This document shows positions 20,414 to 37,632 of a stretch of DNA of 64,000 nt, in pieces. The stretch's first letter is position 1. Each line of letters starts with the position of its first letter. This DNA comes from Phoenix dactylifera (Eukaryota; Streptophyta; Magnoliopsida; Arecales; Arecaceae), in contig NC_052394.1 of assembly GCF_009389715.1 (NCBI RefSeq), positions 20,648,899 to 20,712,898 on the forward strand, read 5' to 3'. The translations under genes were made by a program, and so were the position numbers. The notes beneath the pieces were generated by a model. The model was not told the origin of the DNA and made no database searches. It saw nothing but the letters and a program-made list of their open reading frames with translations.

Positions 20414-22183
20414 ATGCATCTCAAACACAGGGAATTCTCAATCCCCTCCTTATTCCTCCCTCTGTTCCTCCTCTGTTCCTCTGTCCATGGAACCTTGGCC
20501 ACAGATGCTAGCCTCGAGTTCTTGGACCCGACACTCCCTCCGGCTCTCCCGAGCCAGACCCCGAAATGCTCTGTTCTCGTCCTTCAGCAGGATTTCACCG
20601 GCACGGTTGGCACCTCCCCCGTCACCACGAACTACACCCACCCCGTCGACTGCCCCGCCCCATGGACCCGCGTCGTGCTGGAGCTCTCCTTATCTGCCTC
20701 CGGCGTCCCCGTCCAGAAGGACCGCATCGCTGCTGTCTGGATCGACGGCGCTGAGATCCTCCGGACTAGTACTCCATTCACTATAAACCACAGCGCCTTT
20801 TGGAAGGTCCACAAGGACGTCACTCGCTACACCGCCCTCCTCCGCCGGCTCAGTGGCGGCGGCGGTACCGTCTCCATGATGCTTGGAAACTCCAATTCCA
20901 AACCCCCGGGCGTCTTCACCGCCAATGTCTCTCTCCACTTCTACCGTGGAGCACTGTCTGCTAAGTCCATCAACAATGGTCACCCAAGCGTTAAAGGTCT
21001 CTACCGCGAGCCCGCCGACCATGTCATCCCCATTTCGCAAGAGAAGGCGAGCAACGGCAGCAGCTTTTGGTTCCAGATCAGCGGCAACTCCGACATTTCA
21101 ACGGCCTCGGTCGTAATTCCCAGGAACACATACCGTGCAGTACTGGAGATCCTTGCGTCCTACCACGCCGACGACGAGTTCTGGTATGCCAACCCGCTCC
21201 AGACGGAGTACCTGCAGGGCGGCCTCGGCGAGACAAGGGCCAACGGCGGTTTACGCCAGCTGTACGCGACCATCGACGGAAAGTTCGTCGGTGGCCACAT
21301 ACCGTTCGCTGTCATATACCCAGGATCCATCAACCCCTATTTCTGGTCCCCGGTCGCCGCCATCGGAGCCTTCGACATGCCTACCTACGACCTCGAGGTG
21401 ACCCCATTCCTCGGGCTTGTGGTCGACGGCCAGCCACATGAAATCGGGCTCGGTGTCAAGCACAGCCAGTCCTACTGGCTCCTCACCGCCAACCTCCACC
21501 TGTGGGTCGACCGGTGGTCGGACGCCGTGGAGGCGATGCTGGTGGACTACCGAGCGCCGCCGCTGAGAGTGAACCCCCAAGCAGAGTGGAGGAACCAGGA
21601 TGGGAGCTCGGAGATCGACGCCGAGGGGCTGCTCAGGTTCGTTGGATGGGTAAGCTCGTCCAAAGGGAATGTCACCACCCTGGTGAGGCAGAAGGTGACG
21701 TTCAAGAGCCAAGTGGTGGTCCAGAACAGGGGAACAGTAAGACAAGTGGAGATGATAAACAAGGAGGCCATGACGGTGGGGGTGCACAGAGGAAAAAACC
21801 AGGTGGTGGGGCGGGTGCAGCTCTTCATGGACGCGCCGCTCCAGGTGCAGACGTCGACGGTGAATGCGGCCGGAGGGGCGGTGCTCCGGAACACGAGGCT
21901 GTACCACCAGCTGGAGGAAGTGCTGAAATTGAACGATAACATGGCGGTGAGCACGAGCATGCTGACGGACCGGCAAGACGCAGAGGGGACGGTGTTGATG
22001 CATGATGGCATGCCGGTGTGGGGTGGTGGGAGCACCAAGTCATCCTACAAGTACAGAGATGAGAACACTTGCTATCTCCGGACGGTGGACGCCGCCGGTG
22101 GTGCGGTCAAAAACGACGTCACAAGCGCGTCGTGCGCAGCGGCCTCCGCCGCGCAGGCCTGGGTTTGTCTGGGTCACTTTTGA
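20414..22183 (+). CDS. Peptide-N4-(N-acetyl-beta-glucosaminyl)asparagine amidase A (PNGase A), paralogue 1
   Basis: An intronless 589-residue protein of the plant PNGase A family. These acidic glycoamidases cleave the bond between asparagine and the first GlcNAc of N-glycans on secreted or vacuolar glycopeptides, including plant glycans with core alpha-1,3-fucose. Residues 1 to about 29 form a signal peptide (hydrophobic core LFLPLFLLCSSV). Family blocks follow in order: LEFLDPTLPP, CPAPWTRVVLELS, FWKVHKDVTRYT, ANVSLHFYRGA, VKGLYREPAD, SYHADDEFWYANPL, HIPFAVIYPGSINPYFWSPV, LHLWVDRWSD, LTDRQDAEG and YKYRDENTCYLRTV. Several N-X-S/T sequons fit a secreted glycoprotein. Length matches its paralogues. 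The start is supported by a TATA box 80 bp upstream and by the MHL N-terminus shared with paralogue 2. The C-terminus is odd: where paralogue 2 stops after a matching ASA, this frame runs 10 residues further (AQAWVCLGHF). Family assignment is firm; activity is inferred. Confidence 0.93.
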   Translation: MHLKHREFSIPSLFLPLFLLCSSVHGTLATDASLEFLDPTLPPALPSQTPKCSVLVLQQDFTGTVGTSPVTTNYTHPVDCPAPWTRVVLELSLSASGVPVQKDRIAAVWIDGAEILRTSTPFTINHSAFWKVHKDVTRYTALLRRLSGGGGTVSMMLGNSNSKPPGVFTANVSLHFYRGALSAKSINNGHPSVKGLYREPADHVIPISQEKASNGSSFWFQISGNSDISTASVVIPRNTYRAVLEILASYHADDEFWYANPLQTEYLQGGLGETRANGGLRQLYATIDGKFVGGHIPFAVIYPGSINPYFWSPVAAIGAFDMPTYDLEVTPFLGLVVDGQPHEIGLGVKHSQSYWLLTANLHLWVDRWSDAVEAMLVDYRAPPLRVNPQAEWRNQDGSSEIDAEGLLRFVGWVSSSKGNVTTLVRQKVTFKSQVVVQNRGTVRQVEMINKEAMTVGVHRGKNQVVGRVQLFMDAPLQVQTSTVNAAGGAVLRNTRLYHQLEEVLKLNDNMAVSTSMLTDRQDAEGTVLMHDGMPVWGGGSTKSSYKYRDENTCYLRTVDAAGGAVKNDVTSASCAAASAAQAWVCLGHF

Positions 22184-23067: not shown

Positions 23068-23072
23068 ATAAT
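23068..23072. repeat. Target-site duplication, left copy (ATAAT)
   Basis: ATAAT directly precedes the left LTR and is repeated directly after the right LTR at 34959-34963. This 5-bp duplication is the expected integrase signature of an LTR retrotransposon and fixes the element's ends. Confidence 0.92.
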
Positions 23073-23886
23073 TGTTGCTGGTGGTCCAAACCGAGAACGA
23101 TTGACACGACGGTGTGAACGGGGTTCCGCCTGAGTTGTCTTGGTTGGTGCTGGTTGCGCTCCACCTTCCGCCAAGGAACCTGCAAACAAGCCTTGCACCA
23201 CCACCAGGGTGGTGATGGCCCTCCGACGGTCAAGTCAGAGGAGATTGGAGGAGGAGAGATGATAATCACAAGTGGGAGAGAGTGCTCTGGGAGGTATTGC
23301 TTACCCCCCCCTTCTCCCCCCAGCCGCATATATACCTGGCTGGGAGGTCTCTCAGGGGGGTTTGTCGTCGTGGGGCACGATAGAATGGCCACTGACATGG
23401 CCGTTACGGGGCGTCGTGGAGCAGCGCTGGGTACGGTCATGGCAGGGCGTAGTGGAGCTCCGCTTTGTACGGTTGATACAGGAGATCGTGGGCAGCATCG
23501 GGTACAGCCGTTGCAGGGAGTAGTGGAGCAGGAGGCCGCGGCGTGCCTCTGGAGAATAGCCTGTCGTTATCAAAAGATCTCCGACTCGGGGTCGGAATGC
23601 TGGATCATAGGGCAGCCGACCCGGGGTCGGGCTGCGAAGCCGAGGAGGTCCGACTCGGGGTCGGAGTGCTGGATCATAGGGCAGCCGACCCGGGGTCGGG
23701 CTGCGGAGCCGAGGAGGTCCGACTCGGAGTCGGAGTGCTGGATCATAGGGCAGCCGACCCGGGGTCGGGCTGCGGAGCCGAGGAGGTCCGACTCGGGGTC
23801 GGAGTGCTGGATCATAGGGCAGCTGTAGCTTTCCTGGATACGCGTGCCGATCACGTGGGGCATGGCGGCTCAATTCCCCCATAACA
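23073..23886 (-). repeat. Left LTR (3' LTR of the element), 814 bp
   Basis: On plus it begins TGTTGCTGGTGG and ends CCCCCATAACA. Read side by side with the right LTR, the only difference seen is a run of 8 C at 23304-23311 against 7 C in the other copy. It contains a 69-bp tandem repeat (23581-23823) and the LTR TATA box on minus (23326-23336). Confidence 0.95.
23581..23823. repeat. 69-bp tandem repeat in the left LTR, about 3.5 copies
   Basis: Units start at 23581, 23650, 23719 and 23788; the last is partial. Each full unit contains two near-palindromes, CCGACTCGGGGTCGG and CCGACCCGGGGTCGG, and the hexamer GCCGAC, the core of the plant DRE/CRT element bound by DREB/CBF factors. In the element's orientation the array lies in U3, upstream of the TATA box, where LTR enhancers normally sit. 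Regulation by DREB/CBF is inference. Confidence 0.85.
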
Positions 23887-23900
23887 GTAGCCCCCCACTT
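23887..23900 (-). other. Polypurine tract
   Basis: Read on minus, AAGTGGGGGGCTAC directly precedes the 3' LTR terminus (TGTTATGG). A purine-rich run at this place primes plus-strand DNA synthesis during reverse transcription. Confidence 0.65.
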
Positions 23901-24152
23901 CCGAGCCTGGAACCAGAAGGGGAACAGGTGAAGGGAGTGATGTTTCGAGATTGCCGCCATCCTTCGGAGAGGCGCGCGCGCTTCAAGCTTCCCGCCTTCT
24001 TTATGGCGTATGGCGGTTGCTGCTGACCTGGCAACCTGAGGATTTCGGCGGACATCCTTCCTTAATGGTGTCGATTCGCCTTTGGGGTGCGAGCGACCCT
24101 TCGGCGGCCAGGCGTCTTCTGGCGTCATCGAGGTGTCACTTGCCCTCTCGCC

Positions 24153-24402
24153 TATTTAATCGGGGGCCCTCCCCCGTCCGTCTTCTTCTTTACGGACATT
24201 TTCGAGTTTCTCCTTTGCGCTACCATTGTTGCCGCCGAAACGTTCGCTTGCTTTTCCTTTGACGCTCTCGGAGCCGTTCTTCCTCCTCTTCAAGTGAGTT
24301 TCCCACTCTTCTACTTTGAGCTCTTCATACTTTTTCTTTTTGTACTAGTGCACCCCAGTCGTTCCGGCCTTTCCCTCCTTCTTGACCCCGTCCTGACCGT
24401 AG
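24153..24402 (+). promoter_or_regulatory. Candidate promoter and 5' UTR intron of the antisense gene
   Basis: A TATA-like TATTTAAT at 24153-24160 lies outside the LTR and upstream of the antisense gene. A strong donor GTGAGT at 24294 and a pyrimidine-preceded acceptor ending CCGTAG at 24402 could define a 109-bp 5' UTR intron just before the ATG at 24417. Both are predictions from sequence alone. Confidence 0.45.
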
Positions 24403-24416
24403 ATTGGCCATTAGGG

Positions 24417-26782
24417 ATGGGCGAAGTGGGAGCAGATAGCATCAAGTCAAAACTGGTCGCCGAGGACTTAGACGGATTTGTGGCTCGGTACCACCTTCCC
24501 GAGGCCTGCAATGTCACGCTCCCAGGGCCTGAGGAGAGGATGTCTCATCCTCCTCGAGGGAAGATCGCCATCAATGAGGGCATCCTCCAGGCCGGGTTCC
24601 GCTTTCCCCCTTCAGACCTAGTCTTACAGGTGCTCCGGGGTTTAGGAATGGCACCGACGCAACTGGTGCCGAACTCGTGGCGTGCTCTGACGGTCTTCCA
24701 GGTTCTCTGTCGCTTGCATGCGATTCCCGCCACCTTGAACGTTTTCTGGGAGCTCTACGGCCTGAGCGGCCACCCCCAGGACAAAGGGTGGTGGTGCTTC
24801 GCAGCGCGGCGAGGGTGCGGCCTTGTCAAGGAGGGTCCTACCTCCATTCACCACTGGAAGGAGCGCTTCTTTTTCGTTGATGCAGACCCCTCCTGGGAAA
24901 TCAGGGCAATCTGGGGGACGCCGGTGAAGTCCCCAATTGGCCTGTCGAAGTTGTCGAGGGAGGAATCCGAGGGCGTCGCCGCCTTGAAGGGGTTGGTCGC
25001 CGAGGGCCAGCTTCCCCCGGTGGGCCGCCTTATTTCTGAGGATACCTTGGTGAACGTCGGTTTGAGCTCGGTCCCCACCGACCGTGAGTCCGCCATCGTT
25101 TCTTTAGCTCTTTTCTTCTCTTTCGTTCCTTCTTCCTTTCGGTTTCTCAGTCCCTGACCATCCCGTCCTTCTTGCAGAGGTCGACGACGTCATGCGGTCG
25201 GTGAAGTCGAAGGCTGTTGGTAGGGCGTCCCTGCTGGAAGCAGTCCGGAGGAGGAAACGAGCTCTTCCGAGCGGGGCCCCACCGGCGAAGAAGTCCCGTA
25301 AGGAGATACCTCCGATGCCGACCGACGAGTCCGGGCCCACCGGTCAGGGAGATGTCGTGGGCACCGACCGGCAGCTGACGCTGTATCAGCCCTCCGGTGG
25401 TAAGGTTGCCGCTACTCCGGAGGTGCCACCTGAGCCTGCTCAAGACGGACGGGTCGGACGTGATCGGTCCCCGACCCGGCCTTCGACTCGGTCGGCTCCT
25501 GATGACTCGAGGAGGGGCGCGCCGAGGCCCCGGCCGAGCGGGACCCTATCAATTCCTGGGGCGACCCCCGCCCCGAGCGCGATCAGCCGGACTCTTCCCC
25601 AGGCGATGGATAAGGGTAAGGCTGCAGAACCACCATCCGGCTCCGGGGAGAAATCGGAGTCTGCCTTCACTACCGATGGCGCCCGAAATCTCATCGAAAC
25701 AGTGTTGCTGGAGAAGGACCGTCGGCGGGTCCGGGAGTTGGATGTCTCTGACGTTGGGGCCGCCAGCTGCGTCTGTCTCATGTCGGTGAGTGTTCTTCTG
25801 GCCGTCTTTCACCATTTATTGGCTCTGTTGTTCTCCGCCTGACTCCCTTATTTTTCCTATTTCTTAGCTCGCCCAGTACATGATCCGTCTGGAGGAGTGC
25901 TACAAGGAACAGGCGGGGCTTTTGGCGAAGGCCGAGGACCGGCTGAAAGCAATGGAAGAGGGAGGCCGGGCTGCGGCAGGCAGGACGACCGGGGACCTCG
26001 AGGCGAGGCTCCGGGAGGCCGAAGAGCGGGCACTCGGCTTCGCCGCCCTGGAGGAGCAACTGTCAGAGGCTCGGGAGCAACTCAAAGCCGCCTCGGGCCT
26101 CGAAAGCAGGGTCAAGAAGGCGGAGGAACGGGCTGAAAAGCAGTCCCGGAAGATCGCGGACTATCGAGAGCGGTGGGAGAAGGCCCAGCGGTCTGCCGAC
26201 AACGCCTGCGACCGAATCCGCTCTTTTGAAGCCAAACTAGGCGAACTGGAGTCGGCCCTGGAGAAGTCATGCACGGACGTCCAAGAGCTCCGTTCGCGCC
26301 TGAAGGAAGCCGAGGCCGCTCGGGTTGCTACCGAGGCGAAGCATAAAGAGGCTCAGGCTGATCTGCTGAGGGTCTCCTCTGAGGCCGAAGGCCGGATTGT
26401 GGCGAAGGTCTTGGAGGCCAAGGCTCAGATTATGGAGCGAGCTGAGGCGGAGCTGGCCGAGAAGAGGGCGGAAATCGGGCGTCAGGCGGTAGAGGCTTAT
26501 CGCCAGTCCGCCGAGTTCGCCCATGATATGTCGGAGGCAGTGCGGACCTATCGCCAGTCTGACGAGTTTGTCCATGACGCGTCGGACGCGGGGGCCGAAG
26601 CCTTCACCTTGGGCTTCGAGGAGGGCCTGGCAAGGGTGTCGGCTAAGTATCCCGAAGTTGACCTGAGCGAGATCTCCCTCCTGGACTCCTCTCCGGCGCC
26701 ATCGCCTGCTGGTTCTCCTGCTGCTTCCCTACCTCCCGCGGACGAGCCCGGCGTTCCCGACCCGGGAGTTCCTCCAAGCTGA
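24417..26782 (+). CDS. Antisense spliced gene inside the retrotransposon: Transposase_28-like / coiled-coil protein, 729 aa
   Basis: This gene lies opposite to gag-pol, between pol and the 3' LTR. Proposed exons are 24417-25083, 25178-25785 and 25868-26782. The introns (94 and 82 bp) have GTGAGT donors and CAG or TAG acceptors, and the joins keep frame, which argues against a chance open frame. Residues about 55-165 contain RFPPSDLVLQVLRGLGMAPT, QLVPNSWRALTVFQVLCR, GWWCFAARRG and HHWKERFFFV. They resemble the Pfam Transposase_28 ('putative gypsy type transposon') domain as I recall it. Residues 246-264 (RRRKR...KKSRK) look like a bipartite nuclear localisation signal. Residues 426 to about 620 are a long charged coiled coil. 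A short repeat, YRQSxEFxHDxS, occurs twice near residue 650, followed by a Pro/Ser-rich tail. Extra ORFs, some antisense, are known in Tat elements such as maize Grande. Function is unknown. Confidence 0.75.
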
Positions 26783-26955
26783 CCTCTTGTACCTTTTATT
26801 GTCTTTTTTATTTTGTATGTCGGCGTTTTGCCCAATTGTATGGGCCTCGGCCCTGAAAATTAATGCACGTTGAATATTTCTTCATCTCGCCCTCGTCCTC
26901 TTTTTTTTTTTTTTTTAGCTCTTGGTTGCTTCTTGCTGACTTTTGATTCCCGAAG
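26783..26955 (+). other. 3' UTR of the antisense gene
   Basis: A T-rich stretch after the TGA, followed by GAAAATTAATGCACGTTGAA near 26856-26876, looks like a plant 3' UTR with a near-upstream polyadenylation element. It ends where the tandem array begins. Confidence 0.4.
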
Positions 26956-27469
26956 TTCTTCCGGCGCTAGGCCAGGCATCCGAGGGTTAAACCTCAGGAA
27001 ACTCTTCCGGCGCTAAGCCAGGCATCCGAGGGTTAGGCCTCAGGAAATTCTTCCGGCGCTAAGCCAGGCATCCGAGGGTTAGGCCTCAGGAAATTCTTCC
27101 GGCGCTAAGCCAGGCATCCGAGGGTTAGGCCTCAGGAAACTCTTCCGGCGCTGAGCCAGGCATCCGAGGGTTAGGCCTCAGGAAACTCTTCCGGCGCTAG
27201 GCCAGGCATCCGAGGGTTAGGCCTAAGGAAACTCTTCCGGCGCTAAGCCAGGCATCCGAGGGTTAGGCCTCAGGAAATTCTTCCGGCGCTAAGCCAGGCA
27301 TCCGAGGGTTAGGCCTCAGGAAACTCTTCCGGCGCTGAGCCAGGCATCCGAGGGTTAGGCCTCAGGCAACTCTTCCGGCGCTAGGCCAGGCATCCGAGGG
27401 TTAGTCCTCAGGAAATTCTTCCGGCGCTAAGCCAGGCATCCGAGGGTTAGGCCTCAGGAAATTCTTCCG
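26956..27469. repeat. 46-bp tandem repeat array, about 11 copies
   Basis: The unit is built from TTCTTCCGGCGCTAAGCC, AGGCATCCGAGGGTTAGGCC and TCAGGAAA; 46 bp times about 11.2 copies. Copies differ at a few positions (CTAGG/CTAAG/CTGAG; AACTC/AATTC). The array lies between pol and the antisense gene, in the 3' region of Tat elements where satellite-like repeats are known to arise. Confidence 0.9.
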
Positions 27470-28348
27470 CTCGCTGGTCGGCCAAGGCTGGCGCAAGCCG
27501 AAGCGACCGGTCGGGGCTTCCGGCTAGTCTGCTCCCGGGATGATCATCGGGTTAGCCAGGCATCTGAGGGTTGTCAAGCCTCAAGGAAATTCCGCTCGTT
27601 GGTCGGCCAAGGCTGGCGCAAGCCGAGGCGACCGGTCGGGGCTTCCGGCTAGTCTGCTCCCGGGATGATCATCGGGTTAGCCAGGCATCCGAGGGCCGAG
27701 CCTCGGGAGATTCCACTCGTTGGTCGGCCTAGGCTGGCGCAAGCCGAGGCGACCGGTCGGGGCTTCCGGCTAGTCTGCTCCCGGGATGATCATCGGGTTA
27801 GCCAGGCATCTGAGGGTTGTCAAGCCTCAGGGAAATTCCGCTCGTTGGTCGGCCAAGGCTGGCGCAAGCCGAGGCGACCGGTCGGGGCTTCCGGCTAGTC
27901 TGCTCCCGGGATGATCATCGGGTTAGCCAGGCATCCGAGGGCCGAGCCTCGGGAGATTCCACTCGTTGGTCGGCCTAGGCTGGCGCAAGCCGAGGCGACC
28001 GGTCGGGGCTTCCGGCTAGTCTGCTCCCGGGATGATCATCGGGTTAGCCAGGCATCTGAGGGTTGTCAAGCCTCAGGAAAATTCCGCTCGTTGGTCGGCC
28101 AAGGCTGGCGCAAGCCGAGGCGACCGGTCGGGGCTTCCGGCTAGTCTGCTCCCGGGATGATCATCGGGTTAGCCAGGCATCTGAGGGTTGTCAAGCCTCA
28201 GGGAAATTCCGCTCGTTGGTCGGCCAAGGCTGGCGCAAGCCGAGACGACCGGTCGGGGCTTCCGGCTAGTCTGCTCCCGGGATGATCATCGGGTTAGCCA
28301 GGCATCCGAGGGCCGAGCCTCGGGACATTCCACTCGTTGGTCGGCCAC
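27470..28348. repeat. 121/125-bp tandem repeat array with A/B subtypes, about 7 copies
   Basis: The landmark TGATCATC occurs at 27541, 27666, 27787, 27912, 28033, 28158 and 28283, giving spacings 125, 121, 125, 121, 125, 125. Subtype A has TCTGAGGGTTGTCAAGCCTC and subtype B has CCGAGGGCCGAGCCTCGGGA; order is A-B-A-B-A-A-B. The unit contains the 46-bp repeat's core (GCCAGGCATC-GAGGG-CCTC-GGAAATTC) plus about 75 bp of new sequence, so one array seems to have seeded the other. Confidence 0.9.
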
Positions 28349-28636
28349 TTGTCGCTCGCCGCCCATCGGGGTTTCTCTGTGCCCAGCCGCGACCGTGTTT
28401 CTCCTCTCCTCCAAGCGTTGCCTGGGGGGAACACGAGAAGGGTATTAAACGCTAATTAATGCGTTACCTGGGAAATCGGATCGCCAGTTGCTGCTGGTGA
28501 GGAGTGTTAGTTGAGCGGCCGCGATACGCGGGTTCTTCGAGGAGGATGCGGCCTGGGCGCGAGCGGAGACACGTGGACCTAGGGGTATACGTCACCCGGA
28601 TCGTCCTTTTTAAATTGTCTTTCTGGCCTTGTTGTT
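28349..28636. other. Spacer between tandem array and end of pol
   Basis: Non-coding 3' region of the element. It contains GC-rich unique sequence with no recognised motif apart from a short AT-rich stretch (ATTAAACGCTAATTAATGCG, about 28443-28462). Confidence 0.5.
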
Positions 28637-31600
28637 CTACTGGTAATACATCCGCAGGTTAGCGGAATTCCAGCCCCTTGGAATTTCTCGGCCATCTAGG
28701 GCTTCCAACTGGTAGGAGCCAGGTCGGTTTACCCAACGAACTTTATACGGGCCTTCCCAATTTGGCGCTAGCTTCCCACCTTCCGTAGGTTGAGATGCCT
28801 TAGCTCGCCTCAGCACCAGATCTCCAATTCTGAAAAGCTTCGGTCGGACTTTGGAGTTGTAATATCGGGCCACCCTCTGCTGATACATTGCCATCCGTAC
28901 CTGAGCCATTTCCCTTGCCTCTTCCAAGAGATCCAAGTTCCCTCGGAGTTGCTCTGAATTGGCCTCGGGTCGGTGCGCGGCCACCCGAGGCGAGGGGAGT
29001 CCGAGCTCCACGGGGGCAACGGCTTCCGTGCCATAGGTTAGGCTGAAAGGCGTCTCTCCAGTAGGAGTCCGTTGTGTGGTCCGATACGCCCAAAGGACAT
29101 TCTCGAGTTCCTCGACCCAAGCTTGCCCCGTCCGGCCGATCCGCGCTTTGATACCTTGGAGGATTGTCCGATTTGTGACCTCGGCCTCGCCGTTGGTTTG
29201 GGGATGCGACACGGATGTGAACCGATGCTCGATCCCGAATTCCTCGCAGAAGTCCCGGAAGTGCTTGTTATCAAACTGTCGACCGTTATCCGAGATGAGG
29301 ACCCGAGGTACTCCAAATCGGACAATGATGTTCTTCTTCACGAACTTCCGGACTTGTGCCTCCGTGATGGTGGCCAGTGGCTCTGCCTCCACCCACTTGG
29401 TGAAGTAGTCGATGGCGACAATCAAAAATTTTCGCTGGGCCGAAGCGACGGGGAATGGTCCGAGGATATCCATTTCCCACTGTGCGAAGGGCCAGGGCGC
29501 GGTGATTGGCGCCAAGGGGACAGAGGGGACTCTCTGGACGTTGGCGTGGCGCTGGCAGGCGTCGCATTTCCGCACGTGGTCCTTCGAGTCCTCCAACAAG
29601 GTCGGCCAATAGTAGCCTTGCCTCATGATCTTATGCGCCAAGGACCTAGCCCCCAAGTGCGATCCGCAGATGCCTTCGTGGACTTCGCCGAGGGCGTAGG
29701 CCGCTTCCGCGGGGCGGAGGCACCTTAAGAGGGGGGCGGTAAACGAGGTCCGATACAGCCTCCCTTCATAAAGTACGTAGTGGGCGGACTTCTTTACAAG
29801 CCGCCGGGCCTGATCTTCGTCTTCAGGGAGGATTCCTTCGGCGAGGTAGGCGACGAGCGGGTCCATCCAAGACGGCTCGGGATCAATTGCCATCACCGCT
29901 CCAGCCCCGTCAATGCTCGGGGCATCCAGGGTCTCCAGGTAGATTGCCCTCGACAAGTTGTGCGCGTCTGCGTCCACTAGGCGGGACAACCTGTCGGCCC
30001 TGGCATTTTCGCTCCTCGGGACCTGCTGAATGTCAACACTGCCGAGGTCGGGAATGAGTGTTTGCACCTTCCGGACGTAGCTCTGCATGGTCGGGCTCCG
30101 CGCCTCGAACTCCCCTCGAACCTGCCCGACCACCAGCTGGGAGTCGGTGAAGACTTTCAGACGCCGGATGCCGAGCTCCTTGGCGAGTTTGAGTCCCGCG
30201 ACTAGGGCCTCGTACTCCGCCTCATTGTTGGTCACTGGAAATCCGAACCTCAAGGCATACTCGGCTATCACTCCATCGGGATTGGTGAGGACCAGCCCAG
30301 CCCCTCCACCTTCAGGGTTCGACGACCCGTCAATGTGGAGCGTCCAGATCGGGAGATCGAGGCTGGGTGTCTCCGGCGGCTTAGGTTCCGCCTCCTGCAC
30401 AGTGCACTCAGCGAGAAAGTCCGCGAGCACCTGGGCCTTGATGGCTGGTCGGGGCTGGTAGCGGATGTCGAACTCACCAAGTTCTACTGCCCACTTCACC
30501 AGCCGTCCCGCATTCTCTGGATTGCTGAGAATCTGCCGCAGTGGTTGATCGGTCAAAAGGGTGACAGAATGAGCCTGGAAATAGGGGCGAAGCCTCCTGG
30601 TCGCAGTCAGCAGCGCGAAGGCGATCTTCTCAGCCTTCGTGTACCGCGTCTCGGCATCCCGGAGGACTCGGCTGATGTAGTATACAGGCTTCTGAAGTCT
30701 TGCCTCTTCCCGAACCAGTACTGCGCTGACTGCGGTTGGGAAGACCGCCAGGTAAAGGTAGAGCATCTCCCCCTCTTGCGGCTTGGACAGCAGGGGAGGA
30801 GACGCCATGTACTCCTTGAGCTGGTCGAACGCCGCATGACATTCGGCCGTCCAGAGGAAGTCTTTTGGGCGCTTCAACACCTTGAAGAATGGTTGGCAGC
30901 GTTCGGCCGACTTTGCCACAAATCGTCCGAGCGCGGCGACCCTTCCAGCGAGCTCCTGAACCTCCTTCACTTTGGTCGGAGGGGACATATCTTGGATGGC
31001 TTTGATCTTGTCCGGGTTGGCCTCGATCCCGCGCTGGTTGACAATGAAACCGAGGAACCTCCCGGCCGAAGCACCAAAAGCGCACTTCGCTGGGTTTAGC
31101 TTCATGCGAAACTTTCGCAAGGTGGTGAAAGTCTCCTCCAGATCTGCAATGTGCTGGTCTGCATGGCGGCTTTTTACCAGCATATCGTCCACGTACACCT
31201 CCATATTCCGGCCGATCTGCTCCTTGAAGATTTTATTGACGAGGCGCTGGTAAGTGGCGCCAGCGTTCTTCAGACCGAAGGGCATTACCTTGTAACAGTA
31301 CAGCCCCCGGTCTGTTATGAAGGCAGTTTTCTCCTCGTCCTGTGGAGCCATCATTATTTGGTTGTAGCCGGAGAAGGCGTCCATAAAAGACAGTAGCTGA
31401 TATCCGGAAGTCGCGTCGACCAGTTGGTCTATCCGTGGAAGCGGAAAGCTATCCTTGGGGCACGCCTTGTTCAGGTCGGTGTAGTCGACGCACATCCTCC
31501 ACTTCCCGCTCGCCTTCCGGACAAGTACGACGTTTGCCAGCCACTCGGGGTAGCTCACCTCTCTTATGAAACCTGCCTCCAAGAGTTTGTCTACCTCCTG

Positions 31601-34105
31601 GTCGACCACCCGGATCCGATCCGGGGCACAGTGTCTCTTCTTTTGCTTTACTGGTCGGTGGGTCGGGTCGACGTTGAGGGCGTGAGAAACGACCTCCGGG
31701 TCGATCCCAGGTACATCGGCCGCCGACCAGGCAAACACATCTGCATTGGCTCGGAGGAATTCCACTAACCGGAGCCGAGCTTCCAAGTCGAGGTTGGCAC
31801 CGACCCGGACCGTGCGGTCCGGGCGGCCTTCTTCGAGGGGAACTTCGATTACGCCCTCGGCCGGCTCCCCGTGCCGCAAGGCCACTTCGTCTCTGGCGTC
31901 AAGTGACTCGACGCTTAGGGCCTCCATGGGCTTCTTCCCTTTGAGAGTTGCTAGGAAACACTGCCGTGCGGTCGGCTGGTCACCTCGGACCTCTCCAATC
32001 CCAGCCGCTGTGGGGAACCGCATGAGCAAATGGTAGGTAGAAACCACCGCGCGAAGGGCGTTCAGTCCGGGTCGTCCGAGGATAGCGTTGTAGGCCGAGG
32101 GGACACGGACGACCAAGAACCCGAGCCGCACCGTGGCTTCTGCGGGTGCAATGCCCGCAGTCACAGGCAGCTTGATGACACCTTCGGCCGAGATAGCGTC
32201 TCCAGTGAATCCTATGAGGGGGGTGGATGTTTTGTGCAACAATTGTCGGGAAAAGCCCATCTTTTGGAAGGCCTCGTAATACAAAATATCAGCTGAGCTT
32301 CCACTATCCACAAGAACACGCCTTACATCATAGTCCGCCATAGTGAGAGAGATCACCATGGCGTCATCGTGGGGAGTCTGAACCCCCTTTACATCTTCAT
32401 CACAAAAAGTGATTACATTTCCGACCCGCTGCCTCTTCGCGACGGCCACTCCTGATACTTCCGCCGAGCCCCCTGCGTTCCTCACGGGCCGAGAGCAGCC
32501 CCCAGTGATGGTGTGGATCACTCCCGCAACGGGTCGATTCTGCTCCCGAGGCTCCTGAGGGGCCGGGTCGGCTGGACGCGGGTCTGCGGGGGGACGTCGG
32601 TCGTTTACATATCGACCGAGACGCCCTCGGCGAATGAGAGCCTCGATCTCGTCCCGAAGCTGGAAGCAGTCTTCGGTATCGTGGCCGTGGTCTCGGTGGT
32701 ACTCACAGTACGCCCGAGAAGGCTTCCTCCCAGGGATCTTCTTCATCTGCCTCGGGACCGGGAGGTCCTCCCGCCCCTTGACCTCCATGAGGATCTGGGC
32801 CCGGGGGGCCAGGAGTGGGGTGTACCGGTTGAAGCGTCGGTGCGGAGAACGAGGGCGTGTGGCGCCGTGGTTCCTTGCTGGTGACGGGCTTCTGCGCCGG
32901 CGTTGAGGCGTCGGGCTCCTCCTCTGGGGTGCCTCTTTTCGCCTTTTCTTCCCGGGCTTTAGAGGGGCCTCGGCGGCCTCCTTGTTCCGGTGGGAGGCTG
33001 CCTCCTCGGCGTCTGCATACTGGTTTGCCCGAGACAACAGCTCCGGAAAGCTCCGCGGCAGGCGTTTGTCCAGGGAGAAGGTGAGTCTGCCCTTCCGGAA
33101 GCCTCGCTTCAGGGCTGAGAGAGCCACCTCCTGGCTCAAATTCCGGACCTCCAGTGTTGCCTTGTTGAAGCGGGTGAGATAATCCCGCAGGCTCTCTCCC
33201 TCGTTCTGCCGGACATCGAAGAGGGAGTCGGAGACCAGTCTTCGCCGGCTACTGACGGCGAAATGGCTGATGAAGAGACGGGTGAACTGGTGGAAGGACT
33301 GGATGGAATTAGCCTCCAGGCCGGCGAACCACGCCCTTGCCGGGCCGCGGAGGGTCGCCGGGAAGGCCTTGCAGAGGAGAGGATCCGATGCTCCATGGAG
33401 GAGCATAAGAGTCCTGAAACTCTCCACGTGGTCCCGTGGGTCCGCCGCCCCGTCGTAGGGTTCGATCGCCGGCATTTTGAATCCCGGCGGGTTTAGGGTT
33501 CGCAGGATCCTTGAGGCAAGCGCCGGCTGGGAGGAGATTTCCAAGTCGGCGAAGGGATCTTTGGAGTGGCCCTTCAGGACCTGGAGCTGTCTGTGGAGAT
33601 CGTCCACCCGCCGGTCCAGGGAGCGCGACCGGTGGGTGGGAGACAAGGAGCGGCGCGAGGGGGACCGACTGGAGTGCGGGCCCCTCGAGGACTGGGGTGT
33701 CTGAGAACGCGCCCGGGTCCGCCTCTCGTACCCCGCGCAGCTCCGATGAGAAGGTCCTGGCAGAATGGACCGCACTCGAGAATCCTCCCCGCGCCGGCGC
33801 TCCTCTCCATGGGAGAGGAAGGAGCGCGGGTTGTGAGGAAGAGGCGAGTGCTCGGGGAGCAGCGGCTCCTGAGCCCGCTGCGGCACCCGAGAGATCACAC
33901 CCTGCAGATTCTGCACTGCCTCCGCGAGGGTGCGAACCTGCTGGGCTAGCTGGTCGAACTGAGCAGGTTCGACCGTCTGAATGGGAGGAGAAGCGGTGGA
34001 ATGCTGCTGAGAGTGTGTTGGGGACGCAGCAGCCTCCCGGCCAGAGGCGCGAGAGGCTCCGCGACCGGAAGCATTGGAAGCTCCGCGACCACCTCGCCGT
34101 GCCAT
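28637..34105 (-). CDS. Gag-Pol polyprotein of the Tat-lineage retrotransposon, 1822 aa
   Basis: A single uninterrupted frame with no internal frameshift or stop. Start chosen at the first Met downstream of the LTR and primer-binding site (34105, MARRGGRG); the frame stays open upstream into the LTR, but that part is LTR sequence. Domains by residue: Arg/Ser-rich Gag N-terminus 1-180; Gag capsid region about 210-375; zinc knuckle-like C467-H470-H475-C480; aspartic protease DSGSSADIL from 600; reverse transcriptase with YVDD at 971-974; a first RNase H about 1110-1235 that lacks the usual first catalytic Asp (LYLAVFPTAVSAVL); a second, plant/archaeal-type RNase H with D1259, E1297, D1321 and D1371; integrase zinc site H1476, H1483, C1514, C1517 and D1546, D1606, E1642; then a GDLVLRR C-terminal module. 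Function: copying and insertion of the element in virus-like particles. Confidence 0.95.
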   Translation of the reverse strand: MARRGGRGASNASGRGASRASGREAAASPTHSQQHSTASPPIQTVEPAQFDQLAQQVRTLAEAVQNLQGVISRVPQRAQEPLLPEHSPLPHNPRSFLSHGEERRRGEDSRVRSILPGPSHRSCAGYERRTRARSQTPQSSRGPHSSRSPSRRSLSPTHRSRSLDRRVDDLHRQLQVLKGHSKDPFADLEISSQPALASRILRTLNPPGFKMPAIEPYDGAADPRDHVESFRTLMLLHGASDPLLCKAFPATLRGPARAWFAGLEANSIQSFHQFTRLFISHFAVSSRRRLVSDSLFDVRQNEGESLRDYLTRFNKATLEVRNLSQEVALSALKRGFRKGRLTFSLDKRLPRSFPELLSRANQYADAEEAASHRNKEAAEAPLKPGKKRRKEAPQRRSPTPQRRRRSPSPARNHGATRPRSPHRRFNRYTPLLAPRAQILMEVKGREDLPVPRQMKKIPGRKPSRAYCEYHRDHGHDTEDCFQLRDEIEALIRRGRLGRYVNDRRPPADPRPADPAPQEPREQNRPVAGVIHTITGGCSRPVRNAGGSAEVSGVAVAKRQRVGNVITFCDEDVKGVQTPHDDAMVISLTMADYDVRRVLVDSGSSADILYYEAFQKMGFSRQLLHKTSTPLIGFTGDAISAEGVIKLPVTAGIAPAEATVRLGFLVVRVPSAYNAILGRPGLNALRAVVSTYHLLMRFPTAAGIGEVRGDQPTARQCFLATLKGKKPMEALSVESLDARDEVALRHGEPAEGVIEVPLEEGRPDRTVRVGANLDLEARLRLVEFLRANADVFAWSAADVPGIDPEVVSHALNVDPTHRPVKQKKRHCAPDRIRVVDQEVDKLLEAGFIREVSYPEWLANVVLVRKASGKWRMCVDYTDLNKACPKDSFPLPRIDQLVDATSGYQLLSFMDAFSGYNQIMMAPQDEEKTAFITDRGLYCYKVMPFGLKNAGATYQRLVNKIFKEQIGRNMEVYVDDMLVKSRHADQHIADLEETFTTLRKFRMKLNPAKCAFGASAGRFLGFIVNQRGIEANPDKIKAIQDMSPPTKVKEVQELAGRVAALGRFVAKSAERCQPFFKVLKRPKDFLWTAECHAAFDQLKEYMASPPLLSKPQEGEMLYLYLAVFPTAVSAVLVREEARLQKPVYYISRVLRDAETRYTKAEKIAFALLTATRRLRPYFQAHSVTLLTDQPLRQILSNPENAGRLVKWAVELGEFDIRYQPRPAIKAQVLADFLAECTVQEAEPKPPETPSLDLPIWTLHIDGSSNPEGGGAGLVLTNPDGVIAEYALRFGFPVTNNEAEYEALVAGLKLAKELGIRRLKVFTDSQLVVGQVRGEFEARSPTMQSYVRKVQTLIPDLGSVDIQQVPRSENARADRLSRLVDADAHNLSRAIYLETLDAPSIDGAGAVMAIDPEPSWMDPLVAYLAEGILPEDEDQARRLVKKSAHYVLYEGRLYRTSFTAPLLRCLRPAEAAYALGEVHEGICGSHLGARSLAHKIMRQGYYWPTLLEDSKDHVRKCDACQRHANVQRVPSVPLAPITAPWPFAQWEMDILGPFPVASAQRKFLIVAIDYFTKWVEAEPLATITEAQVRKFVKKNIIVRFGVPRVLISDNGRQFDNKHFRDFCEEFGIEHRFTSVSHPQTNGEAEVTNRTILQGIKARIGRTGQAWVEELENVLWAYRTTQRTPTGETPFSLTYGTEAVAPVELGLPSPRVAAHRPEANSEQLRGNLDLLEEAREMAQVRMAMYQQRVARYYNSKVRPKLFRIGDLVLRRAKASQPTEGGKLAPNWEGPYKVRWVNRPGSYQLEALDGREIPRGWNSANLRMYYQ

Positions 34106-34127
34106 TACGATCGTTCTGAGATTCGTC

Positions 34128-34145
34128 CCTTCCTCTAGCGCCAAC
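34128..34145 (-). other. Primer-binding site
   Basis: Directly after the 5' LTR, the minus strand reads GTTGGCGCTAGAGGAAGG. A TTGGCGC-type start at this place is common in Tat/Athila-lineage elements and pairs with the 3' end of a host tRNA. I cannot name the tRNA with certainty. Confidence 0.65.
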
Positions 34146-34397
34146 TGTTGCTGGTGGTCCAAACCGAGAACGATTGACACGACGGTGTGAACGGGGTTCC
34201 GCCTGAGTTGTCTTGGTTGGTGCTGGTTGCGCTCCACCTTCCGCCAAGGAACCTGCAAACAAGCCTTGCACCACCACCAGGGTGGTGATGGCCCTCCGAC
34301 GGTCAAGTCAGAGGAGATTGGAGGAGGAGAGATGATAATCACAAGTGGGAGAGAGTGCTCTGGGAGGTATTGCTTACCCCCCCTTCTCCCCCCAGCC

Positions 34398-34408
34398 GCA
34401 TATATACC
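34398..34408 (-). promoter_or_regulatory. LTR TATA box
   Basis: On minus the sequence reads GGTATATATGC, followed by G/C-rich DNA. This is the probable core promoter of the retroelement transcript, with start expected near 34370. The upstream U3 carries the GCCGAC-containing repeats and a CACGTG G-box at about 34925-34930. Confidence 0.6.
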
Positions 34409-34652
34409 TGGCTGGGAGGTCTCTCAGGGGGGTTTGTCGTCGTGGGGCACGATAGAATGGCCACTGACATGGCCGTTACGGGGCGTCGTGGAGCAGCGCT
34501 GGGTACGGTCATGGCAGGGCGTAGTGGAGCTCCGCTTTGTACGGTTGATACAGGAGATCGTGGGCAGCATCGGGTACAGCCGTTGCAGGGAGTAGTGGAG
34601 CAGGAGGCCGCGGCGTGCCTCTGGAGAATAGCCTGTCGTTATCAAAAGATCT

Positions 34653-34895
34653 CCGACTCGGGGTCGGAATGCTGGATCATAGGGCAGCCGACCCGGGGTC
34701 GGGCTGCGAAGCCGAGGAGGTCCGACTCGGGGTCGGAGTGCTGGATCATAGGGCAGCCGACCCGGGGTCGGGCTGCGGAGCCGAGGAGGTCCGACTCGGA
34801 GTCGGAGTGCTGGATCATAGGGCAGCCGACCCGGGGTCGGGCTGCGGAGCCGAGGAGGTCCGACTCGGGGTCGGAGTGCTGGATCATAGGGCAGC
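34653..34895. repeat. 69-bp tandem repeat in the right LTR, about 3.5 copies
   Basis: Same array as in the left LTR; units start at 34653, 34722, 34791 and 34860. It lies upstream of the TATA box in the transcribed orientation, so it probably acts in U3. Confidence 0.85.
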
Positions 34896-34958
34896 TGTAG
34901 CTTTCCTGGATACGCGTGCCGATCACGTGGGGCATGGCGGCTCAATTCCCCCATAACA

Positions 34959-34963
34959 ATAAT
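34959..34963. repeat. Target-site duplication, right copy (ATAAT)
   Basis: A perfect match to 23068-23072, immediately after the terminal CA of the right LTR. Confidence 0.92.
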
Positions 34964-35844
34964 CATTTTGAAGTCTGAATTCAAGTTTGAGATTCAATTT
35001 GGTGCATGATTTCAAGGATCACCGGGCTAGTCAAAGATTCACAATTTCCACAAATGAAAGGGCTCTTATTTACAATAGTCCATATATACTAAAAATATAG
35101 TCGATTGTGATGAAAAAGGTACACGATATGAAGAGTAAATGATTGATTTTTTTTAAAAAAAAAACAATACAAACAGATTTCAGAAACATTGCCCCTTCCC
35201 TTGTCTCATGTCGCGTGTTTAATTTGATTAAAATGTAACCAAAATCAAGTGCCAGCTAGGGTTGTGGAAATTAAATGGCAATCGACCAGAGTTAAAAAGA
35301 GAATGCATAAAATAAAAGCATAAATTCGAACACGAAGAAAAGGAATTAATCCCAGTCATGTAATTTGTCTCCTAGTTGAGTTGAGCTTGAACCAGCAGTT
35401 TATTTCATGAGTGAACAAATGAGCTAAGTTTCATTGCAATTAAGTTATACCCACTTACCTATGTACATGTGTAATCAATCGTACTTGTTTTGTAAGTTTC
35501 AAAAAAGAAGAAGAAGAAGAAGAAAAACAAGAAGAAGAAATAATTACGTAGGGACAATTATGACCCACAAGATAGTAACATCTTCATCACATGTAAGCAA
35601 CCCATGTTAGCTCTATGAGCATGACTCCAATTGATGCCCCACGGCAAAGGTGATAACCGTAGATTAATTGCTACAAAAAACAAAGCGTTTATTATTACAC
35701 AACTATAAGAACTCTTCTCAGCTACAGCAAATAGCATAGGTCAATCACTTATTATACCTCAAAGGCTGCTTACCAATCCTAACATAATGATATAATCGAG
35801 CTACCAGGGCAAGCTGGTGAATGGAACAGCTAGCGACCTAAATC
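34964..35844. other. Spacer between retrotransposon and PNGase A gene 2
   Basis: AT-rich DNA including the presumed 3' UTR of gene 2 at its right end. A GAA-rich microsatellite lies at about 35505-35540. No gene was recognised. Confidence 0.5.
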
Positions 35845-37632
35845 CTAAGCCGAGGCAACCGCAGAGCACTGAGGGCTGGCGACATCGAACTTCACCACGC
35901 CGCCGGCAGCATTTACCGTGCGGAGATAGCAAGTATTCTCATCCCTGTACTTGTACGACGACCTTGTGCTCCCGCTCCCCCAAACCGGCGCTCCGTCGTG
36001 CATCAGCACCGACCCCTCGGCGTCCTGCCGGTCGGTCAGCGAGCTCGTGCTCACCGCCATGTTCTCGTTCAAGTTCACAATCTCCTGCAGCTGGTGGTAC
36101 AGCCTCGTCTTCTCGAACACCGCCCCGCCGATGGCGTTCACGCTCGACGTCTGCACCTGGAGCGGCGCCTCGATGAAGACCTGCACCCTCCCCACTGTTT
36201 GGTGCCCCTTGGCCACCGCCACCGTCGTCCTCTCCTTGTTTGTCATCTCCACCTGTTTCACTGCCCCCCGGTTCTGGACCTCCACCTGGCTCTTGAACTT
36301 CACCTTCTGCCTCACCGTGGTGGTGATGTTTCCCTTCGACGAGCTCACCCACCCCGAGAACCGGATCAGCCCCTCGGCGTTCACCTCCGACTGCCCGTCT
36401 GGGTTCCGCCACTCGGCGTGCCGGTTAATTTGGAGCGGCGGTGATGAGTACTCCACCAGGCCGGCTTCCACTACGTCGGACCATGCATCCACCCATAAAT
36501 GGAGGTTTCCACTCAGCAACCAGTAAGGTTGGCTGTCCTTCACCCCGAGCCCGATTTCGTGTGGCTGCCCGTCCAACAATAGCCCCAAGAATGGCGTTAT
36601 ATCGAGGTCGTAAGATGGGATGTCGAAGGCGCCAATGGCGGTCACCGGGGACCAGAAGTAGGGGTTGATCGAGCCAGGGTATATAACGGCGAACGGAATG
36701 TGGCCGCCAACAAACTTTCCGTCAATGGTCGCGTATAACTGGCGGAAACCGCCATTGGCTCGGGACGTGCCGAGCTGCCCCTGGAATGAGGATCGAAGCG
36801 GGTTTGTGTACCAGAACTCATCGTCGGCGTGGTACGAGCTGAAGATCTCGATCACAGCGCGGTAGGTGTTTCTGGGAATGGTGACCGACGCCGCGGGCAC
36901 ATGGGAGTCGTTGTTGACCAGAAGCCAGAAACCGCCGCCCTCAGCGCCTTTTTCACAAGAAATGGGGATGATGAGGTCGGCCGGCTCGCGGTAAAGGCCT
37001 TTGACAGTCGGATGGGCGGTGCCGATGGTTGCCGGGCGGGCAACGGGGACGGCACCCCGGTAGAAGTGGAGGGAGACGTTGGCGGAGAAGACGCCGGGGA
37101 AGGAGGTGACGTTGGAGTTCTCCAGCCTCATGGTGACGGTGCCGGCGTCACCGAGGTGGCGGAGGAGCGAGGTGTAGCGGGTGACATCCTTGTGGACCTT
37201 CCAGAAAGCGCCGCCGGGGAAGGTGGGGACGGGTGTGGTGGTGCGGATGACCTCAGCGCCGTTGACCCATACGGCGGCGACGCGGTCCCTCTGGACGTCG
37301 GAGACGGAGAAGGAGAGCTCGAGGACGACACGGGTCCAGGGGGCGGGGCAGTCGGGAGGCTGGGTGTAGTTGGCGGTGGCGGGGGGAGAGCCAACTGTGT
37401 CAGCGAAGTCGCGCTGTAGGACGAGGACAGAGCACTTGGGGTTGGTCTCTCTGGGGATGGCCGGGGGGAGGGTAGGGTCCAAGAACTCCAGGCTGACGTT
37501 TGTGGCAGGAACTTGGTGCAGTTTGAATGAGGAGGTGAAGCATGACGCCCCGGAGAAACAGAGAGAAGTGAAGATAAAGAGTAGAATGAGTGGGGCCGCA
37601 GCAGAGCGGAGGTGGCTGTGGTTGAGATGCAT
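35845..37632 (-). CDS. PNGase A (peptide-N-glycosidase A), paralogue 2
   Basis: An intronless 595-residue protein very similar to paralogue 1 along its whole length. It should remove N-glycans from secreted glycopeptides. A signal peptide (hydrophobic APLILLFIFTSLCFSG) is followed by the family blocks LEFLDPTLPP, CPAPWTRVVLELS, FWKVHKDVTRYT, SANVSLHFYRGA, SYHADDEFWYTNPL, IPFAVIYPGSINPYFWSPV, LHLWVDAWSD, WVSSSKGN, LTDRQDAEG and YRDENTCYLRTV. Almond PNGase A, the classic member, matures into two chains; such processing here is assumed, not seen. The ATG at 37632 follows a TATA box by about 127 bp. It faces paralogue 1 tail to tail with the retrotransposon between them. The protein ends ...CSAVASA, which is probably the ancestral C-terminus. 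Confidence 0.93.
   Translation of the reverse strand: MHLNHSHLRSAAAPLILLFIFTSLCFSGASCFTSSFKLHQVPATNVSLEFLDPTLPPAIPRETNPKCSVLVLQRDFADTVGSPPATANYTQPPDCPAPWTRVVLELSFSVSDVQRDRVAAVWVNGAEVIRTTTPVPTFPGGAFWKVHKDVTRYTSLLRHLGDAGTVTMRLENSNVTSFPGVFSANVSLHFYRGAVPVARPATIGTAHPTVKGLYREPADLIIPISCEKGAEGGGFWLLVNNDSHVPAASVTIPRNTYRAVIEIFSSYHADDEFWYTNPLRSSFQGQLGTSRANGGFRQLYATIDGKFVGGHIPFAVIYPGSINPYFWSPVTAIGAFDIPSYDLDITPFLGLLLDGQPHEIGLGVKDSQPYWLLSGNLHLWVDAWSDVVEAGLVEYSSPPLQINRHAEWRNPDGQSEVNAEGLIRFSGWVSSSKGNITTTVRQKVKFKSQVEVQNRGAVKQVEMTNKERTTVAVAKGHQTVGRVQVFIEAPLQVQTSSVNAIGGAVFEKTRLYHQLQEIVNLNENMAVSTSSLTDRQDAEGSVLMHDGAPVWGSGSTRSSYKYRDENTCYLRTVNAAGGVVKFDVASPQCSAVASA

Follow-up and report, generated by a model that had tools for sequence, protein, structure and literature searches.

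The window, that is, the whole stretch of 64,000 nucleotides of Phoenix dactylifera DNA that was analysed, carries an LTR retrotransposon on the minus strand (Table 1). The element was described as young in the preliminary description, and this was borne out by the two LTRs, which aligned with 813 matches, no mismatch and one gap, and by the TSD present at both ends. The single frame of gag-pol, read from the first ATG after the LTR, contained the Pfam domains Retrotrans_gag, RVT_1, RT_RNaseH, RVT_3, H2C2, and rve. Among these, RVT_3 (E 5.3e-19, gag-pol residues 1338-1454) is a second RNase H-like domain located after RT-RNaseH, which we take to be the archaeal-type RNase H (aRH) of the Tat branch. 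The region between pol and the 3' LTR (23887-28636, 4750 bp) carries an antisense ORF with PF04195 and tandem arrays. In Retand elements the corresponding region is reported to be 2,933-6,566 bp long with an antisense TRP28 ORF, and to include tandem arrays in about half of the elements (PMC11963269). Judged from its domain content and layout, the element is a young LTR retrotransposon of Retand type (Tat branch, Ty3/gypsy).

Within each LTR a 69-bp unit is repeated in tandem (23580-23892 and 34652-34964), with CCGACTCGGGGTCGG-like palindromes. Three long ORFs with a PNGaseA domain flank the element on both sides (20414-22183 on the plus strand, 35845-37632 and 40133-41980 on the minus strand), so that the element is surrounded by clustered genes resembling peptide N-glycosidase A.

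Table 1. Features of the retrotransposon and of its antisense gene (positions in the window)
Feature	Position	Strand	Remarks
TSD ATAAT, first copy	23068..23072		5 bp
LTR retrotransposon	23073-34958	-	
3' LTR	23073..23886	-	814 bp; TG..CA ends
Polypurine tract	23887..23900	-	purine-rich; adjoins 3' LTR; read directly
TATA-like box CTATTTAAT	24152..24160	+	counterpart of CTATATAAA in relatives, two mismatches; 265 bp before ATG
Candidate 5' UTR intron	24294..24402	+	proper ends in the window
Exon 1	24417..25083	+	TRP28 domain, PF04195 at residues 55-116
Intron 1, phase 1	25084..25177	+	GT-AG, 94 nt (3n+1)
Exon 2	25178..25785	+	basic NLS-like stretch near start, Pro/Ser-rich after; last 40 codons alignable
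Intron 2, phase 0	25786..25867	+	GT-AG, 82 nt (3n+1)
Exon 3	25868..26782	+	long proline-free helical stretch, then C-terminal EF..GFE....YP.DL-like motif
Two tandem-repeat arrays	26906..28346		46-bp unit and 121/125-bp unit; between antisense gene and pol
gag-pol, single frame	28637..34105	-	first post-LTR ATG at 34105, stop at 28637
5' LTR	34146..34958	-	813 bp
TSD ATAAT, second copy	34959-34963		5 bp

A gene of 729 codons with two frame-keeping GT-AG introns had been proposed opposite to gag-pol. Its antisense orientation was confirmed, but the gene does not overlap gag-pol and is located between the end of pol (28637) and the 3' LTR. The gene model itself stood: the frame is kept once both introns are removed, the joined exons make up 730 codons including the stop (729 amino acids), and the splice sites recur in distant relatives (see below). 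The longest open run obtained by chance was 367 codons in 2000 single-letter shuffles of the spliced coding sequence. Upon reading without splicing from the ATG, exon 1 enters intron 1 and a stop is met after 246 codons. The exons are 63% GC with 18% T, and the two coding introns 44-49% GC with 44-46% T. In seven other young copies, chosen for an exon-1 protein identical to that of the window, the number of bases differing from the window was 0-3 in exon 1, 2-5 in exon 2, 0-3 in part of exon 3, and 0-1 per intron; an ungapped comparison of these copies over 1500 upstream bases was meaningless because of indels. The candidate intron in the 5' UTR (24294-24402), also proposed previously, did not hold up among the relatives, since a GTRAG donor was absent from the matching place in the seven relatives read by eye.

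The spliced protein, for which a search against Transposase_28 had been suggested, indeed matched this family (PF04195, TRP28) over the curated cut-off of 26.2, with E 1.2e-10 and 41.9 bits for the spliced protein and E 1.9e-11 and 44.4 bits for exon 1 alone. TRP28 was the sole Pfam family over its cut-off in the spliced protein, and all 10 members of sequence set A1 matched PF04195. In exon 3 the first proline appears at residue 262, and six residues (A, E, K, R, Q, and L) account for 70% of the first 225 residues. The best NCBIfam match of exon 3 was SMC_prok_B (E 1.2e-5, 23 bits vs. a cut-off of 567), which, as far as such a score can tell, is a likeness of coiled coils only. The C-terminal end of exon 3 matched the relatives (best E 3.6e-4). 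Searches against PDB gave one match for the exon-1 profile (E 1.2), which is no support, and one weak match for exon 3 (E 0.026, residues 76-201). The structure of exon 1 predicted without alignment had a mean pLDDT of 42, and no fold search was based on it.

Relatives of the gene were collected from the same genome. With exon 1 as query, the best 150 of 4444 candidates were scored, all at 99-100% identity, and only two of these 150 near-identical matches contained a stop within exon 1. With PF04195 as query, the best 150 of 3465 candidates were scored and all 150 exceeded the cut-off. In 14 control genomes no match to PF04195 was found, and no relative beyond this genome was confirmed in the collections of viral contigs, genome contigs, and plasmids. 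The loci studied were the 30 top-scoring PF04195 matches (L009-L038) and 10 more, altogether 36 distinct places, as L039-L042 repeat L009, L013, L016, and L019; L043-L047 were picked for long open frames, and the pairs L019/L020 and L027/L028 are apparently duplicates, as their values were identical. In nine aligned relatives, exon 1 was 34-38% identical to that of the window, with 38 invariant columns of 223 in the alignment of 10 sequences. The relatives are not independent, because all are from one genome and most apparently belong to one group of related families. Nine elements were fetched, and pol was antisense to the gene in all six in which pol was found. The homologues were seen as TRP28 matches alone, the element context being examined in a few of the 150 scored loci. 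At one place (G000:C1334:16514-17179), exon 1 lies within an open frame of 2027 amino acids that seemingly extends upstream of the gene; in the stretch fetched there, the frames of exons 1 and 3 have their usual form, and that of exon 1 meets no stop up to the upstream limit of the stretch.

Selection on the protein was estimated from dN/dS of exon 1 among the 19 of 31 loci without stops. The median dN/dS was 0.82 for the two pairs with dS below 0.1 and 0.35 for the 19 pairs with dS of 0.1-0.25, and then 0.21 (76 pairs, dS 0.25-0.5), 0.17 (29 pairs, dS 0.5-1), and 0.21 (45 pairs, dS 1-3). Pooled dN/dS was 0.30 for exon 2 (25 pairs; 11 of 26 loci usable) and 0.12 for exon 3 (35 pairs). Decayed old copies, with stops or frameshifts in 12 of 31 for exon 1 and 15 of 26 for exon 2, were left out of these estimates. 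In the same five elements the pooled dN/dS was 0.11 for pol and 0.21 for exon 1 (10 dependent pairs), with 1-7 stop codons skipped per pol and none in exon 1. The divergence K of the two introns was 0.20 and 0.27 vs. an exon-1 dS of about 0.41, indicating that the introns do not change faster than synonymous sites. The preliminary description had named random stops and dN/dS near 1 among the family copies as signs against the gene. With respect to dN/dS, measured on related families, the value in exon 1 is about 0.2 and not near 1; with respect to stops the outcome is divided, as stops interrupt exon 1 in 12 of 31 old copies, yet exon-1 dN/dS remains about 0.2. This level indicates that selection has maintained the protein, with about half the stringency seen for pol.

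The same values bear on a different reading, in which the antisense RNA and not the protein matters, either regulating the sense RNA or feeding siRNA production, with the ORF as a passenger. Roles of antisense RNA are discussed for such elements (PMC7264820), and the arrangement of the gene, convergent with gag-pol, would suit them; however, dN/dS of about 0.2 together with 38 invariant columns of 223 among 10 sequences needs a translated product at some time, and we consider a role of the RNA alone to be very improbable.

The splice sites were then counted in the relatives at 33 places, after omission of L010, L023, and L034, which lack the end of exon 1, from the 36; six sites were placed by hand. 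At the homologous codon and phase, donor 1 was GT in 31 of the 33 relatives and GTRAG in 29, and acceptor 1 was AG in 31. Donor 2 was GT in 29 of 31 relatives in which it was located, and acceptor 2 was AG in 27 of 29. All eight exceptions were single changes, seven from G to A and one from A to T. The recurrence of the splice sites in very distant relatives indicates that the gene is real and old, beyond what chance would give. The G-to-A losses were found in the old copies L013, L017, L029, L032, L035, and L046, and the A-to-T change in L031; G to A is the change expected from cytosine deamination on the opposite strand.

The exon borders of the window were also compared with those of the relatives. 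A GLSS motif is followed by four codons plus one base and then by donor 1 in both, and where tblastn matches run as far as the exon-1 terminus, they break off at residues 213-222 of 222. When the final 40 residues of exon 2 were aligned with those of the window, offset 0 was best in seven of eight relatives, with 5-8 identities and a score reached by 0-51 of 5000 shuffles, and donor 2 is therefore in register with that of the window. At the start of exon 2 the best offset was 7-8 residues in all 10 relatives, so that either acceptor 1 has moved in the window or exon 2 of the window has gained residues. The length of intron 1 in the relatives varied between 72 and 128 nt, with remainders by three of 0, 1, and 2 in 13, 7, and 13 of the 33 loci (8, 7, and 12 of 27 loci without L043-L048). 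After splicing, the frame was open over the first 40 codons of exon 2 in 30 of 33 loci and over those of exon 3 in 24 of 29; without splicing, it stayed open through intron 1 and 40 codons beyond in six of 33, each of which has an intron of 3n length. The length of intron 1 is thus free of the frame while exon 2 is open after splicing, the behaviour of spliced introns. The length of intron 1 in L021 and L043-L047 is divisible by three and the intron is free of stops, so that both the spliced and unspliced forms could be read.

It might be argued that the exons are separate antisense ORFs translated from unspliced RNA and that the GT-AG pairs arose by chance. Separate ORFs are what the surveys list (PMC11963269), six relatives stay open through intron 1, and a methionine near the start of exon 2, common to the window and most relatives, could serve as a start. 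Against these points, GTRAG stands at the homologous base in 29 of 33 relatives, the intron lengths take all three remainders, exon 2 continues the frame of exon 1 only after splicing, and the homology of exons 1 and 2 to the relatives resumes just past the introns. Frame-keeping introns by chance were rejected on this conservation, and translation as separate ORFs is very improbable.

A TATA-like box of its own, outside the LTR, had been claimed for the gene. The claim was correct for the window insofar as TATTTAA is present at 24153 as described, but the box has two mismatches to that of the relatives and would fail the test of at most one mismatch applied to them. Upstream sequence was sufficient for the search in 25 of 31 loci, and in 24 of these 25 relatives CTATATAAA with at most one mismatch preceded the second codon by 250-286 bp (19 exact); letter-shuffled stretches gave the box in 0.4%. 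CACGTG, a G-box-like element, was present in 13 of the 25 loci, and it preceded the TATA box by 63 bp in each of the 12 loci having both (L015, L016, L018, L019, L021, L022, L024-L026, L030, L031, and L038); it was absent from the matching place in the window. As far as sequence alone can indicate, the antisense gene has a promoter-like sequence of its own. An antisense gene with several introns and a promoter-like sequence inside a young element, as originally described, is thus supported.

Spliced copies were searched for with up to three mismatches, using both junctions of the window family and the first junction of the distant families, and no place was found. The unspliced boundary 1 was detected at 578 places for the window family (289 per strand) and at 341 places for the distant families (176 and 165); the unspliced counts cover boundary 1 alone, and the distant-family probe reaches only near variants. 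The absence of spliced copies is expected if only the sense RNA is copied. The missing processed copies fit such copying, and splicing is neither proved nor disproved thereby; the earlier proposal that antisense introns survive reverse transcription agrees with the finding of no spliced against 578 unspliced places at boundary 1.

Taken altogether, these observations make it highly probable that the locus carries one three-exon antisense TRP28 accessory gene of a Retand-type element, not separate ORFs, with the promoter, splicing, and nuclear role proposed as follows. For transcription, splicing, nuclear site, and role of this antisense gene, we infer that RNA polymerase II would start at the TATA promoter lying inside the element, between 3' LTR and gene, and transcribe towards pol, and that the transcript would lose the two short introns and direct a single protein. 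From the N-terminus this protein would consist of the TRP28 domain, a basic stretch for nuclear entry, a flexible linker, a long coiled coil, and the conserved C-terminus. The element would be copied from the sense RNA only, in which the introns are backwards and unspliceable and therefore persist. The protein could be a self-associating nuclear accessory factor that aids the expression or handling of the element, a suggestion that we regard as rather doubtful.

HBZ of HTLV-1 has a spliced form, encodes a bZIP protein, and starts in the LTR. The present gene is likened to HBZ by mode, as coding for an antisense and presumably nuclear protein of a retroelement, and not by sequence. HBZ is named in the survey of Retand elements (PMC11963269), where antisense TRP28 ORFs are given for 97% of recently active Retand clusters (Vicient 2025). 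The ORFs described there share with the present gene the location between pol and the 3' LTR, the antisense direction, PF04195, the tandem repeats nearby, and the occurrence in young copies, but are treated as separate ORFs, in contrast to the one three-exon gene proposed here. gene23 of maize Grande is likewise described as antisense, with its own promoter and a nuclear product (Gomez-Orte 2013; PMC7264820); the promoter and nuclear site are known for gene23, whereas those of the present gene are predicted from sequence. The authors of PMC7264820 call for study of antisense and spliced transcripts. According to a review published in December 2025, introns are generally missing from plant LTR elements, Ogre and EVADE being notable exceptions (PMC12786077); these two share with the present element the presence of spliceosomal introns, but their introns are spliced from the RNA of the element itself (PMC12786077, PMC6317226), whereas the introns described here are antisense. 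The main text of the Retand survey (PMC11963269) has no word beginning with "intron", and introns in these antisense genes found no mention among the matches listed (titles and abstract openings). Antisense TRP28 ORFs are thus a published hallmark of Retand, and the shared introns have apparently gone unmentioned, though they may have been described earlier.

Recent capture of a host gene by the element, to which the gene-like anatomy with introns and a promoter-like box might point, was rejected as hardly credible, because the gene recurs in other element families at about 36% identity, with an antisense orientation to pol in six of six elements with pol found, and the spliced protein contains no Pfam family over cut-off besides TRP28. 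The term "host-like" of the preliminary description is accordingly not retained: TRP28 is reported to be without similarity outside transposable elements and to be described only from flowering plants (PMC11963269), and the age of the gene matches that of the divergence among the element families compared.

ORF-based surveys would cut one such gene into pieces. ORFs in the Retand survey were collected by ORF Finder at a length of at least 600 bp, shorter ones being kept if coding for TRP28 (PMC11963269), and the limit in another survey was 250 codons (PMC6317226); the exon-1 ORF of 246 codons falls just below the latter, and exon 3 taken alone is SMC-like, which would account for the splitting. 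Given the resemblance of exon 3 to SMC, the TRP28 and Smc-type ORFs that the surveys list separately are likely to be exons of one gene. A correct gene model makes the expression, selection, and function of the gene testable.

The literature has left the origin of the antisense ORFs unsettled, naming a transduced cellular sequence, a nested transposon, or an unknown virus (PMC11963269), and the shared introns bear on this question. Introns common to distant families argue that the gene was acquired as DNA rather than captured as a spliced message, though later gain of the introns may be an alternative to acquisition together with them. We put forward tentatively, at slightly less than even confidence, that all antisense TRP28 genes carried by the Retand elements of flowering plants represent a single old gene with spliceosomal introns. 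This gene would have entered as DNA rather than as spliced cDNA, and a retroelement would have preserved it only because it is antisense; the ORFs listed in the surveys as Smc, TolA, pol III tau, and the like would be its later exons.
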